Below are positions 9,052 through 61,057 of a stretch of DNA of 64,000 nt, piece after piece. How positions within the stretch are numbered: position 1 is the first letter of the stretch; each line of letters opens with the position of its first letter. The DNA is from an uncultured Anaerolineae bacterium. Lineage in GTDB: Bacteria; Chloroflexota; Anaerolineae; J036; Brachytrichaceae. A model generated the notes under the pieces. It was given only the letters and a program-made list of their open reading frames with translations, was not told the DNA's origin and ran no database searches. The position numbers and the translations under genes were made by a program. Location: contig CALHLE010000025.1 in NCBI GenBank assembly GCA_938034415.1, forward strand, positions 51,152 to 115,151, in the 5' to 3' direction.

Positions 9052-11826
9052 ATGCAACAGCAGCAACCTTTAGAGCTCATAAGCCGATTGATGGCTCCCT
9101 TGCTTGGCGGAGCGTCTTCTCTGTGTAAGAGAAAGTCGCGCGCTGGAGCTGCCTCGGCCGCGCCACCGAGTCCCGCGCAGACAAGCGCATCCCAGTTTAG
9201 CGCGGAAGACATCCTTGGTTCGCACATCCGCAACGTGGCCGGCGACTACACCGAGATCGCGGTCAAAAACATATTTCCTACATGGAAGACGCCTTCCGCT
9301 AATCCAATCAATCGAGTCACGCTGCCACCGCGCAGGCAATTCGTGGGACGAGAAGATTTACTCGCGCGCTTAGAGGAACGCCTGAAACGCGCTGATGGCG
9401 TGAACGTCATCTGTCTCACCGGCGCAGCCGGAGTCGGCAAGAGCGCGCTTGCGCTGGAGGCAGCTTATCGGTTCGGCGACCTCTTCCCGGATGGCTGCTA
9501 TTGGGTAGACCTGCGGGGCAACAACTTGATAGAGGCACTGCGCGAACTGTTGAGCGCGCTAGGTATAGCGCGCGCCGAGGAACTGAGGGAAGACGCGCTT
9601 ACTCTGGCCGAAATTGCGCGCGGCCAATTGGCAGGCAAGCGCACCTTGTTGATCCTAGATAACGCCGAAGGCGTCGTGCGACATCACCGCCAGCATGTGC
9701 TCGCCATGTGCCCTGCGACGCCGGCGAAGACCATCATCACCAGCCGCATCATCATAGACGTGGACGACCTGCGCGTGGACGCGCTGAGCGACGGCGACGC
9801 GCTAAAGCTGCTGGAAGCTAAAGGCATCTCCGTTGCCGACCAATATGACGACGCGCTCAGGCTGGTCAGGCGACTCGGCAATCTGGCGCTCGCCATCACC
9901 ATCGTCGCGCGGCGCATGCGCATTACCCAGCCGGCGCAGTCGTGCGCCGACAGCTTGCGAGAGATAGACGAGAGCGCCAGCCTGATGGACGCGCTCAGAC
10001 TCCCCCTGAGCGATACACCGGATGACAGCCTGGCTGCGGCGTTTGCCCTCTCGTATGAGTTGCTCGACGCGCCACTACGGATGACCTTCCATGCATTGAG
10101 CCTGTGCGCGCCTTCGGGGGCTTCCATCCAAGGCATTGCGCGCATGTGCGATATCACCGAGCCTGTCGCATGCGACAGGCTGCGAGCGCTGGCTATGTTC
10201 TCGCTGGCCGAGTTCGACGGCAAGCGCGCGCAGCTACACCCTCTGCTCAGAGACTGGGCGCACACCCTTCCGTTCGAGCGCGACGCGCTGATCACACGAC
10301 ATGCGGCGCACTTCGGCCTGGCGATCGGCAGCCGCTATCAACAGGCGCTCAACAGCGAGCAGGACCCACTTCCCGCGCTCATCCAGATCGATGCCGAGTT
10401 GGCTAACGTCCAGCTTGCCCAGGAACGCGCGCTTTCGCCAAACTTCCCGGCGCCGGAGCTGGCTGTAGAGATCACGGATTGCCTTGTGCTCTACTGGCGC
10501 CAGCGCCACATCCATCCCCAGCAGCTCCTGCAGTGGATCAACCGGGCTTGCCGTCTGGCGGCGCAAACGCAACAGCGGAGTCATTGGGCCAACCTGCTGC
10601 AGGCGGCCGGCGACGTGCAGGTGTTCTACGACCGACACGACGAAGCGCTGAAATCTTACCAACAGGCGCTCGACTTGTTCATCGAGCTGGACGACCGCCT
10701 AGGGCAGGCCAACACGCTCAAGGCCATCGGCGACGTGCACATGTTCTGTGACCAACACGACGCAGCGGAGCGCTGCTACGAGCGGGCGCTCGACTTGTTC
10801 ATCGCCACCGGCGATCGGCTGGGCCAGGCCAATTCGCTCAAAGCCATCGGGGATCTAAGCACTGCGCGCGCTCAGCATGATGCGGCGCTGGATTCCTACG
10901 CGCGCGCGCTCGACTTGTTCACGGCCATCGGCGATCGGCTGGGCCAAGCCAACACGCTCAAGGCCATCGGTGACGTGCAGGCCTTCCGCAAGGAGAGTGA
11001 CGCCGCCATGCGGGCGTACGATCAAGCGTTGAGGCTGTTCTCCGCCGCAGATTCAGCACTGGGTCAAGCCGGTGTGCTTAAAGCTATCGGTGATGTGCTT
11101 GCCTTCCAAGACCGGCGAGACGCAGCCCGGCAGTCGTATGAACGCGCGCTTGAACTGTTTACCGCTGCGGAGTCAAAGCTGGGCCAGGCCAACACGCTCA
11201 GGGCGCTCGGAGACATCTCAGCACCTCACCACCATGAGCACGACGAGTACAACGAGAGCGCGGCTGCGCTGGCATGGTATCAACGCGCGCTTGAGTTGTT
11301 CAACGAGATCGGCGACCGGCTGGGTCAGGCCAACACACTCAAGGTTATCGGTGATGCGCACGCCCAGCGCGGAGAGAGTGACGCCGCGCTGCGGTCCTAC
11401 GAACAAGCGCTGGAGCTATATGCCGCAACCAACTCACAACTGGGACAGGCGTACACTTTGCTAGCAATCGGAGATGTGCAAGTGGCATTAGGGCAAGAGG
11501 CCCAAGCGCTCAAGCTGTATGAGCAAGCGCTGACGCTCTTTACTCTAGCAGGATCCGCGCTTGGACAGGCCAACGCTTACGCGGCCCTCGGTCGCGTCAG
11601 CGGCAAGCGCGCCCACTTCGAGAAGGCCATTCGGCTATACGCCGGCATCCACGATTTATACAGCCTCGCCCGGTGCAAGTTCTACTACGCGCTTAGGATG
11701 ATGGATCACGACAGCGACATCGCCCTGGAACTGCTCACAGACGCCAAGTCGCTGTGGAGTCAGATCAACTTCGAGGAAGGCATAGCGGCGGTGGACGATT
11801 TGTTGAGCCAGCTCACGGTCAGATAG
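9052..11826 (+). CDS. STAND NTPase with NB-ARC module and TPR array
   Basis: 924 residues. Residues 1-90 are low complexity with a short GSHIRNVAGDYTEI element. The NB-ARC-type NTPase follows: Walker A GAAGVGKS (124-131), Walker B LLILDNAE (about 199-206) and sensor TIITSR (about 227-232). A winged-helix-like region (about 330-400) comes next. Residues about 510-865 hold about nine TPR units of 40 residues with the consensus LGQANTLKAIGDV then ALxxYxQALxLF. STAND proteins are ATP switches that oligomerise on sensing a ligand through their repeats; they act in regulation, cell suicide or phage defence. No catalytic effector domain is visible, so output must come from a partner, perhaps the small membrane protein encoded just upstream. 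GAGGAGAAG precedes the ATG. Confidence 0.9.
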   Translation: MQQQQPLELISRLMAPLLGGASSLCKRKSRAGAASAAPPSPAQTSASQFSAEDILGSHIRNVAGDYTEIAVKNIFPTWKTPSANPINRVTLPPRRQFVGREDLLARLEERLKRADGVNVICLTGAAGVGKSALALEAAYRFGDLFPDGCYWVDLRGNNLIEALRELLSALGIARAEELREDALTLAEIARGQLAGKRTLLILDNAEGVVRHHRQHVLAMCPATPAKTIITSRIIIDVDDLRVDALSDGDALKLLEAKGISVADQYDDALRLVRRLGNLALAITIVARRMRITQPAQSCADSLREIDESASLMDALRLPLSDTPDDSLAAAFALSYELLDAPLRMTFHALSLCAPSGASIQGIARMCDITEPVACDRLRALAMFSLAEFDGKRAQLHPLLRDWAHTLPFERDALITRHAAHFGLAIGSRYQQALNSEQDPLPALIQIDAELANVQLAQERALSPNFPAPELAVEITDCLVLYWRQRHIHPQQLLQWINRACRLAAQTQQRSHWANLLQAAGDVQVFYDRHDEALKSYQQALDLFIELDDRLGQANTLKAIGDVHMFCDQHDAAERCYERALDLFIATGDRLGQANSLKAIGDLSTARAQHDAALDSYARALDLFTAIGDRLGQANTLKAIGDVQAFRKESDAAMRAYDQALRLFSAADSALGQAGVLKAIGDVLAFQDRRDAARQSYERALELFTAAESKLGQANTLRALGDISAPHHHEHDEYNESAAALAWYQRALELFNEIGDRLGQANTLKVIGDAHAQRGESDAALRSYEQALELYAATNSQLGQAYTLLAIGDVQVALGQEAQALKLYEQALTLFTLAGSALGQANAYAALGRVSGKRAHFEKAIRLYAGIHDLYSLARCKFYYALRMMDHDSDIALELLTDAKSLWSQINFEEGIAAVDDLLSQLTVR
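10573..11620 (+). repeat. 120-bp tandem repeats encoding TPR units
   Basis: Units of 120 bases recur within the STAND gene, recognisable by phrases such as gggccaggccaacacgctca and gcgctcgacttgttc. One unit near 11220-11300 is lengthened by 21 bases (an HHEHDEY insertion). Several neighbouring units are nearly identical in DNA as well as protein, which suggests recent expansion or exchange. Confidence 0.85.
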
Positions 11827-59547: not shown

Positions 59548-60030
59548 CTAGGGTAACTCGCTCAGGTCGGGCGGCCGGCGCCAGCGCCGCACTTCGCTGC
59601 CTTGCGCGTCATACAGGATAAACGTAGGCGTGAACTCGAAGCCAACCTCAGCAGCGAACTGACGCGTTCCGGGATTGGCCATGTCGAGCAACAGCACCCA
59701 ACCGTCCTTCCATTCCTCTTCGATCCGGCGCACGGCCGGACGCGCGCTGATGCAGGCGCTTCAGTAGTTAGAGTAAAACTCAACTAGGACGGGCCTGCCC
59801 GCTGTCCGGATCGCCATGCGGATGTCGGCAGCGGTGTCCAACTTCACCGTGGCCGTTTGGGGCACGCGGCTCAGCAGCGCGTAGGCAACGACGCCGAACA
59901 ATACCGCACCCCACGCCACCCAGAAGCTCGGCCTGGCCCGGCGGCGGAGCAAAACCGCGGCCACAATCGCCAGGGCAATTGCTGGCAGCAGGAGAAACGA
60001 ATACTGGTTGAAAACCTGAACGATCGTCAT
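59548..60030 (-). CDS. Membrane-anchored thioredoxin, candidate selenoprotein (UGA in UxxC)
   Basis: 160 codons from ATG 60030, with GGAGG four bases upstream. Two membrane helices (about 8-28 and 35-55) precede a thioredoxin domain: RPVLVEFYSNY, then TGA (59763-59761, codon 90), then SACISARPAVRRIEEEW, and the cis-proline segment FEFTPTFILYD. The TGA stands where thioredoxins have the first cysteine of CxxC, giving UxxC. The frame and homology continue to a TAG at 59550-59548 with no decay. A hairpin sits downstream of the TGA. Sec insertion is inferred; a simple TGC-to-TGA nonsense mutation is the alternative. The gene follows the AcuI-like gene by 16 bases and converges on yraN. Confidence 0.65.
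59724..59740 (-). promoter_or_regulatory. SECIS-like hairpin after in-frame UGA
   Basis: On the mRNA, UCCGGC and GCCGGA pair (six pairs, extendable by one G-U) around the loop CGUGC. The loop begins 27 bases after the UGA. A bacterial SECIS lies shortly after the codon with a G early in its loop, so location and loop are compatible. An alternative fold of the same GC-rich stretch exists, so the element is only suggestive. Confidence 0.35.
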
Positions 60031-60046
60031 CACGCCTCCAACTGAA

Positions 60047-61057
60047 TCAACATGAATCGCCCAAATCCACAACGACCCGCCCACGTACTTTGCCTTGCAA
60101 GATGGCATCAATCATCGGATCAAGCCCGGCGAGCGTGACGGTCTGCGCAATAGCCTCGAATGCCATTGGCGACGGCTTCCACGAGTTTGCCAAGTTGTGC
60201 CACATCTGCAGCCGCAGCGCCATTGGCGTTTCGGCGGAGTCCACGCCTTGCAAGGTGACGCCGCGCAGGATAAACGGATACACGGTGATGTGCAACTCAG
60301 GCGACGCGACGTTGCCGCAGCACACCACGCAGCCGCCGCGCTTCGTCGCCTTGATGGCCGTGGCGAGGATATCCCCGCCGACGGCATCCACTACACCGGC
60401 CCAGCGCTCGTTGAGCAGCGCTTTGCCGCTCGCGTCGCGCAGGTCGTCGCGGGGCAAGACCGCTTGAGCGCCGAGCTGCTTTAGCCAGTCGCCGGCATCG
60501 GCCTTGCCCGTTGCCGCAACAACGCGGTATCCCAGCTTGCTCAAGATGGCCACGGCCCAGCAGCCCACGCCCCCGCTCGCGCCGGTCACCAATACGTCGC
60601 CCTGCTCCGGCGTCAGCGCGTGGCGCTGGAGCTGATGCACGCTCAGCGCAGCCGTCAAGCCCGCCGTGCCCAGCGCCATACTCTCGCGCAAGGTCAGCCC
60701 CTCCGGCTTCCGCACCACCCACGCCGACGGGACGCGGATATACTGGCCAAAGCCGCCCGGCGTGTTCATGCCCAGGTCGTAGCCGGTGACAATGACGGCG
60801 TCACCAGGCCTGAAGTCCGCATCGGCGCTTTCGACGACCTCCCCGGCGGCGTCAATGCCCGGCGTGTGCGGGTAGCGGCGCGTCACCCCCCGGTGGCCCG
60901 TTGCCGAAAGCGCATCTTTGTAGTTCAGCGACGAATAGCGCACGCGAATCAGCATGTCATTCGCCGGCAGATCGGCAAGCTGGCGCGTCCTCACCGACCG
61001 CTCAAACCCACCTTCAGGTCGCTCGCTTACGACAAGCGCCTTGAATCCCCGCTCCAT
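60047..61057 (-). CDS. MDR-family oxidoreductase, AcuI/YhdH-like
   Basis: 336 residues, full length. GroES-like N-half with SSLNYKDALSATGHRGV and PHTPGIDAAGEV; Rossmann half with VLVTGASGGVGCWAVAILSKLGY and GVVDAVGGDILA. The pattern is that of the YhdH/AcuI subgroup, NADPH-dependent acryloyl-CoA or quinone reductases without zinc. A role in detoxifying acryloyl-CoA would fit with MmsA elsewhere in the window, but no direct link is seen. It is co-directional with the thioredoxin gene. Confidence 0.85.
   Translation of the reverse strand: MERGFKALVVSERPEGGFERSVRTRQLADLPANDMLIRVRYSSLNYKDALSATGHRGVTRRYPHTPGIDAAGEVVESADADFRPGDAVIVTGYDLGMNTPGGFGQYIRVPSAWVVRKPEGLTLRESMALGTAGLTAALSVHQLQRHALTPEQGDVLVTGASGGVGCWAVAILSKLGYRVVAATGKADAGDWLKQLGAQAVLPRDDLRDASGKALLNERWAGVVDAVGGDILATAIKATKRGGCVVCCGNVASPELHITVYPFILRGVTLQGVDSAETPMALRLQMWHNLANSWKPSPMAFEAIAQTVTLAGLDPMIDAILQGKVRGRVVVDLGDSC

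Follow-up and report, generated by a model that had tools for sequence, protein, structure and literature searches.

ResA, DsbE/CcmG, StoA and the gamma domain of DsbD carry a CxxC motif. Redox motifs containing selenocysteine (Sec, U) are also on record. For example, passages of PMC13188914 describe a Sec-containing thioredoxin of Pfam family PF00085 with a UxxC motif as experimentally verified and list it simply as Trx, and UxxU motifs are known in Prx-like proteins, according to passages of PMC2398784 and PMC9312934. Bacterial SECIS elements, as set out in passages of PMC13188914, have a loop of 3-9 nt, an upper stem of 4-16 bp and 16-37 nt between the UGA and the loop, with a G at loop position 1 or 2, usually as G[G/U], and a minimum free energy (MFE) of at most -7.5 kcal/mol. 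Selenocysteine is mentioned in Chloroflexi papers such as PMC5736913 and PMC7117926. Our literature search, which covered titles, abstract openings and selected passages, returned no selenothioredoxin of Chloroflexota or Anaerolineae among the matches listed, and the word stem chloroflex has no occurrence in the main text of PMC13188914, PMC5029168, PMC12013277, PMC9312934 or PMC2398784.

Here, we describe a gene in a 64,000-nucleotide stretch of DNA (the window) from an uncultured Anaerolineae bacterium. The window is part of contig C25 of a 2.83-Mb genome that is 98.5% complete. We predict that UGA codon 90 of this gene is read as selenocysteine, which would make it, almost certainly, a selenoprotein gene.

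A thioredoxin gene divided by an in-frame TGA

On the minus strand, the frame runs from the ATG at 60030 through a TGA at 59763-59761 (codon 90) to a TAG ending at 59548. The original prediction had placed the ATG with its GGAGG site, the TGA and the TAG at these positions, and the sequence bears the coordinates out (Table 1). It had also seen thioredoxin sequence on both sides of the TGA. Consistent with this, the read-through product, scored with C standing in for U, matches PF00085 (Thioredoxin) with 34.5 bits against a cut-off of 23.5 over residues 68-143, that is, across codon 90. The active-site motif is FYSNY-U-SAC, and TPT occupies residues 134-136, where Pro135 is presumably the cis-proline expected of thioredoxins. 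Five full-length orthologues from the genus are equal in length to the window's protein.

Table 1. Features of the codon-90 gene, with loci of related or neighbouring groups.
Feature	Position in window, or loci	Strand	Basis or remark
Whole frame, 160 residues	59548..60030	-	sequence, read-through translation, PF00085, genus orthologues
GGAGG, ribosome-binding-site-like, four bases 5' of ATG	60035..60039	-	sequence
Predicted membrane helix 1, residues 11-29	59944..60000	-	AF2 helix; 19-residue hydropathy up to 2.54
Predicted membrane helix 2, residues 34-53, past Arg-rich loop	59872..59931	-	AF2; hydropathy 1.91
Thioredoxin-fold domain, residues 67-150	59581..59832	-	Pfam; AF2; Foldseek
In-frame TGA, codon 90, predicted selenocysteine opening U-S-A-C	59761..59763	-	sequence; homologous loci
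Cys93 codon, second active-site residue	59752..59754	-	invariant in alignments of 9 and 51 rows
Thr134-Pro135	59626..59631	-	P135 invariant in 51 rows
Predicted bacterial SECIS hairpin	59723..59741	-	GUCCGGC-CGUGC-GCCGGAU; apical loop 26 nt past UGA
Zinc-type dehydrogenase/quinone reductase-like ORF, upstream neighbour	60047..61057	-	PF00107 + PF08240; 16 nt from ATG
Exported lipoprotein-like UxxU-type thioredoxin loci with one hairpin	L203, L205-L224		
SNTUSAC/FYAEWUTTC-type loci	L031-L034, L036-L039, L041, L044-L046		
Loci with PF01676-like neighbour	L080, L081, L086, L091, L098, L101, L107, L111, L112, L116, L117		

The gene had been expected to be mis-annotated, and this is the case in the protein database searched. 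A search of 5.8 billion proteins, with candidates limited to 0.55-1.75 times the query length, returned 16 matches, all of them stubs of 88-91 aa that cover 54-56% of the query and end at the TGA. Where these stubs are named, they are called, among others, hypothetical protein, drug/metabolite transporter or TRAP-type transport system; one stub (P0002) is listed without a source and could be that of the window itself. No NCBIfam model reached its cut-off in any of the three family members scanned. The thioredoxin TrxA equivalog TIGR01068 scored 26.1 bits against a cut-off of 96.8, and the ResA, DsbE, DsbD and StoA models scored 12.5-15.1 bits against cut-offs of 123-359. The gene family had no match among plasmid records.

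Conservation of the TGA and exchange with cysteine

Six of the nine genus genomes searched, the window's own counted, have a full-length copy with a single TGA, and the five other copies are 78-86% identical to the window's. A seventh genome, G008 (L028, G008:C3), keeps the TGA in a frame broken by shifts. Its assembly is in 5 contigs, and one frame shift lies within a G-rich run. G005 and G007 gave weak matches only, to other thioredoxins.

Class-wide, a profile match at E <= 1e-10 was obtained in 185 of 396 genomes, shorter thioredoxin relatives included. Among the matches listed, outside which the weakest lie, at least 57 are full-length (profile start <= 7, end >= 146); 43 have one TGA and 14 have none. 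The hairpin counts and the tree described below took 55 of these 57, namely 41 Sec and 14 Cys genes, and G008 was omitted because of its shifts. The two remaining genes, G365:C13 and G230:C12, have the TGA at the same place, with four and six of the six core hairpin pairs, respectively. Both a Cys copy (L086, G365:C22) and a TGA copy (L201, G365:C13) of the two-helix family are present in G365.

The genome_contigs collection (84,980 species) was scanned codon-blind with a pattern whose last position immediately precedes codon 90 and which passes over forms like SPF-U. In the best 80 of 109 confirmed matches, codon 90 is TGA at 56 loci, TGC at 20 and TGT at 4, with no other codon, and the second active-site Cys is present in all 80. 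Seventy-eight of these 80 lie in records titled with Chloroflexota names, and the nearest loci carry the titles Anaerolineae, Candidatus Roseilinea and Caldilineales. Two loci in records titled Actinomycetes (L159, L171) have both the TGA and the hairpin. In G389, a more weakly matching relative contains a TAA as well as its TGA.

These alignments confirm that the TGA stands at the position of the first active-site Cys, as originally proposed, and the recurrence of the TGA in seven of nine genus genomes agrees with the earlier view that a chance nonsense mutation is less likely. The pattern that would have spoken against it, unrelated stops with decayed downstream sequence, is absent: all 80 loci have TGA or Cys, and the sequence downstream of the TGA is conserved among homologues without decay. 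Bacterial selenoprotein genes are recognised by an in-frame UGA that aligns with Cys of homologues and by selC, selA, selB and selD in the same genome; the former is found here (56 TGA, 24 Cys and 0 other in the best 80 of 109), and so is the latter.

A predicted SECIS hairpin behind the TGA

The hairpin GUCCGGC-CGUGC-GCCGGAU is likely a SECIS element, as predicted from its agreement with the bacterial rules given above. It has a 5-nt loop on a 7-bp stem, lies 26 nt from UGA to loop, carries the required G in its loop CGUGC and has an MFE of -11.7 kcal/mol. The energy limit of -7.5 kcal/mol is reached by 33 of the 41 Sec genes and one of the 14 Cys genes, the hairpins of eight Sec genes being weaker when folded in isolation. 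The loop GU, at alignment columns 31-32, is present in all 41 Sec genes aligned and, in the best 80 of 109 loci, in 56/56 Sec genes, yet also in 19/24 Cys genes, so that it is partly fixed by a Val codon. Folded alone, the 76 nt around the window's TGA do not exceed shuffles in stability (z 0.20); lone folding of this copy is uninformative, and the hairpin claim therefore rests on comparison.

Across the 41 Sec genes (39 distinct), 88.1% of the cells of an 8-pair stem are paired, compared to 72.7% in shuffles. With the partner slid, 25-43% of cells are paired, a difference to be expected of a stem drawn from these very sequences. Two-sided changes occur in six of the eight pairs, and covariation is 0.508 versus 0.208; further pair types in the Sec set are no more numerous than in shuffles (12 vs 12.0). 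The 14 Cys genes have 43.8% of cells paired, with no excess over shuffles, and RNAalifold draws six stem pairs for the Sec genes and no pair at all for the Cys genes. At least four of the six core pairs are formed in 41/41 Sec genes versus 6/14 Cys genes and, in the best 80 of 109 loci, in 56/56 Sec versus 6/24 Cys genes. The corresponding rank test gives p 7e-11, and the same test on 52 sequence windows not previously seen gives p 1e-7, both values being too small because the sequences are related. In six genus genomes, 11 of 14 codons just 3' of the TGA are synonymously invariant compared to 37 of 100 overall (p 9e-4, for a segment chosen after the alignment was viewed; longest run p 0.004).

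Selenocysteine machinery and its co-occurrence with the TGA form

All four of selA, selB, selC and selD, for which a search had been proposed, are present in the window's genome, so absence of the machinery is ruled out. The genome has one tRNA-Sec(UCA) of 73.2 bits (ARAGORN and Rfam), SelA (E 2.9e-132), SelB (335 bits, cut-off 242) and SelD (360 bits, cut-off 125). A second RF01852 match above the cut-off (C12:3092) was rejected as a tRNA-Sec, as ARAGORN calls it tRNA-Ser. The SelD gene (L018, G000 contig C30:59258-60193) has one in-frame TGA, in SCAGUAGK, and its product is likely a selenoprotein itself. A second exported-looking thioredoxin gene (L115, G000 contig C6, about 10673-10924) encodes FYAPW-U-GSC, with the TGA at the matching active-site position and a hairpin at the matching place (six of six core pairs). 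Together with the codon-90 gene, these two bring the window's genome to at least three candidate selenoprotein genes.

Among 60 relatives, a convincing SelA was found in 48 (two clipped at contig ends) and not in 12. A TGA-bearing thioredoxin match occurs in 26 of the 48 genomes with SelA versus one of the 12 without (Fisher p 0.0075), in a comparison sorted by hand with the TGA position read for part of the matches; the single exception, G021, has the TGA form without a strong SelA. A tRNA-Sec of at least 60 bits is present in 38/42 TGA-form genomes and 10/14 Cys-form genomes (G365 placed among the latter) and so does not separate the two forms. The four TGA-form genomes in which no strong tRNA-Sec was found (G125, G194, G204 and G320) are drafts 64-90% complete. 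Cys forms thus mostly live in genomes still able to use Sec. The 55-row tree, rooted at its midpoint and with some long branches, needs seven Sec/Cys changes, at least six of them on starred branches. The scattered Cys rows fit an old Sec form that would have been replaced repeatedly by Cys.

UxxU and other exported relatives

A weak match in G045 (L203:1008-1367) has two in-frame TGAs, in TENUAPUQ, and encodes an exported-looking thioredoxin whose LAAC we take to be a lipobox-like motif. Of 98 genomes belonging to the family of G045, 38 have a match at E <= 1e-8. Two TGAs are present in 28 of the 30 matches with E <= 1.4e-19 and one TGA in the other two. Of the 20 loci read, one (G465) is UxxC and the other 19 are UxxU, with a TGA at each active-site position. 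PF00085 Thioredoxin is the best match in all four UxxU relatives tested. The hairpin is present at all 20 loci of the UxxU group, where 5-6 of the 6 core pairs form. The loop begins 26-27 nt past the first UGA and 17-18 nt past the second (in alignment columns), both distances falling inside the 16-37 nt range, and the two UGAs apparently share this one hairpin, as far as sequence can tell. Covariation in this group is thin: two-sided changes occur in three of eight pairs, and a control slid by +2 has higher covariation (0.203 vs 0.174) with fewer cells paired (44% vs 85.6%).

Two further groups of exported-looking thioredoxins, the single-helix SNTUSAC and the lipoprotein FYAEWUTTC types, have a TGA and a hairpin at the same place. 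Of 13 such loci, all but L035, which the motif did not pick up, could be scored, and each of these 12 forms 5-6 of the 6 core pairs.

Structure, location and gene neighbourhood

AF2 run on 51 rows, with Cys replacing Sec, gave N-terminal helices and a thioredoxin domain at a mean pLDDT of 92.8, and Foldseek ranked thioredoxins and the DsbD gamma domain highest. The inter-helix loop has a net charge of +4 in the window's protein, averages +2.6 over 55 homologues and is at least +2 in 51 of the 55. Because this loop is positive and the N-terminus is not, both ends are predicted outside, and the thioredoxin domain likely faces outward from the cytoplasmic membrane. Of the membrane-anchored selenoprotein originally proposed, the Sec reading is strongly supported, and the anchoring is a prediction of AF2 and hydropathy.

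No evident redox partner gene was recognised beside the codon-90 gene within the window, and none in the gene neighbourhoods of 22 loci. In 11 of these 22 relatives, one of the next two ORFs encodes a PF01676-like metalloenzyme, a conserved neighbour; the three tested by Pfam are all PF01676. It was rejected as a functional partner, as it does not explain a thioredoxin.

Decoding of the UGA and proposed role

A TGA that is a true stop, left by a nonsense mutation or marking a pseudogene whose remainder is decaying, would be one base from TGC or TGT, as this one is; database entries end at it, and the G008 copy is frame-shifted. We find this explanation highly improbable, given that the same TGA recurs in seven of nine genus genomes and at 56 of the best 80 of 109 loci, with protein conserved on both sides, that a covarying hairpin accompanies it in Sec genes and that the G008 shifts look, from their sequence, like sequencing error. 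Hardly more credible is a UGA read as another amino acid without selenium, through a code change or plain read-through. Such a reading accounts for the in-frame TGA and nothing more, and it conflicts with the use of UGA as the predicted stop of another gene in the same genome (Trx2) and as the terminator of this very gene in G001, G004 and G006, with the exchange of TGA for Cys alone in the loci read, and with the presence of tRNA-Sec(UCA), SelA, SelB and SelD. A third possibility is that the cell makes two products by design, an 89-residue membrane stub and the Sec form, in a ratio set by selenium supply. SelB decoding of UGA competes with termination, and the stub would contain both helices. 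Yet the Cys homologues (14 of the 55 read) would yield the full protein alone, which indicates that the full domain is what selection keeps, and none of the analyses here points to a role for the stub; we consider a purposeful stub improbable. We therefore favour Sec at codon 90 within a full-length thioredoxin.

In the mechanism we propose for this Sec protein, SelB with GTP and selenocysteyl-tRNA(UCA) would bind the hairpin 3' of the UGA and let the ribosome insert Sec rather than stop, as in the known bacterial pathway. The two helices, judging from hydropathy and the Arg-rich loop, would keep the thioredoxin domain outside, where Sec90 could attack exported proteins at disulfides or otherwise oxidised sulfur and Cys93 would resolve the intermediate. 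Electrons would likely come from cytosolic thioredoxin via the genome's one DsbD/CcdA-type transmembrane protein. With one DsbD_TM match and no VKOR match in the genome, a reductase fed through the membrane by a CcdA-type conduit is the role we favour, less surely than the Sec reading. Alternatively, the protein may act on the outer face as an oxidant, isomerase or peroxide reductase. The candidate electron source lies on another contig (C33) and isomerases share the thioredoxin fold, which keep such a role plausible; the lack of a VKOR match in the genome and the place of a reductase domain, DsbD gamma, among Foldseek's top matches make it somewhat doubtful, and we retain the CcdA-fed reductase as our working proposal.

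Significance and comparison with known systems

The codon-90 gene belongs to what appears to be a widespread, mostly-Sec family of tethered thioredoxins in the class Anaerolineae (Chloroflexota). Annotation halves this family, and the redox biology of a large environmental class of bacteria is under-read as a result. A tethered Sec thioredoxin would also give the Sec machinery of Anaerolineae a client, and in some members of the class few clients are annotated. For example, in Anaerolinea thermophila UNI-1 a Sec elongation factor is reported but no dehydrogenase annotated as containing Sec, according to passages of PMC4959059. With at least six Sec/Cys switches in a single tree, and a hairpin that most Cys forms have lost, the family could provide a natural test bench for SECIS evolution, and the UxxU relatives raise the question of whether one SECIS serves two UGAs. 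We regard it as an evenly balanced matter whether outer-face thiol redox in Anaerolineae runs on selenium, through a clan of tethered and lipoprotein thioredoxins that share one SECIS design, always positioned the same way behind the active-site UGA. The clan's most extreme branch would be UxxU, with one hairpin decoding two UGAs nine bases apart and diselenide thioredoxins as the products.

Each of the closest known systems shares part of this design. The extracytoplasmic thioredoxins fed by CcdA (ResA, DsbE/CcmG and StoA) and DsbD gamma have in common with the window's protein the thioredoxin fold and the predicted outer-face location, and the genome's DsbD_TM protein is a further likeness; the two-helix anchor and the missed NCBIfam cut-offs set our protein apart. 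The metagenome selenoproteins in passages of PMC1088965, which are thiol-disulfide isomerase-like, DsbA-like and Prx-like, have UxxC and a bacterial SECIS as ours does, but are listed there under other families. The UxxU Prx-like proteins in passages of PMC2398784 and PMC9312934 resemble the exported UxxU relatives in placing two Sec in one redox motif; they belong to or near other families (pfam00578, or near pfam04592), whereas the relatives described here match PF00085 (4/4). The Sec thioredoxin catalogued in passages of PMC13188914 shares PF00085, the UxxC motif and a bacterial SECIS immediately 3' of the UGA. Unlike that entry, the window's protein has two N-terminal helices and an NCBIfam thioredoxin score below the cut-off, and its two-helix family comes almost entirely from Chloroflexota records (78 of the best 80 of 109 loci). 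Single members of the family may already be listed in earlier work. UxxC thioredoxin selenoproteins are thus already known, and what is new is a tethered, mostly-Sec lineage of them without an NCBIfam model.
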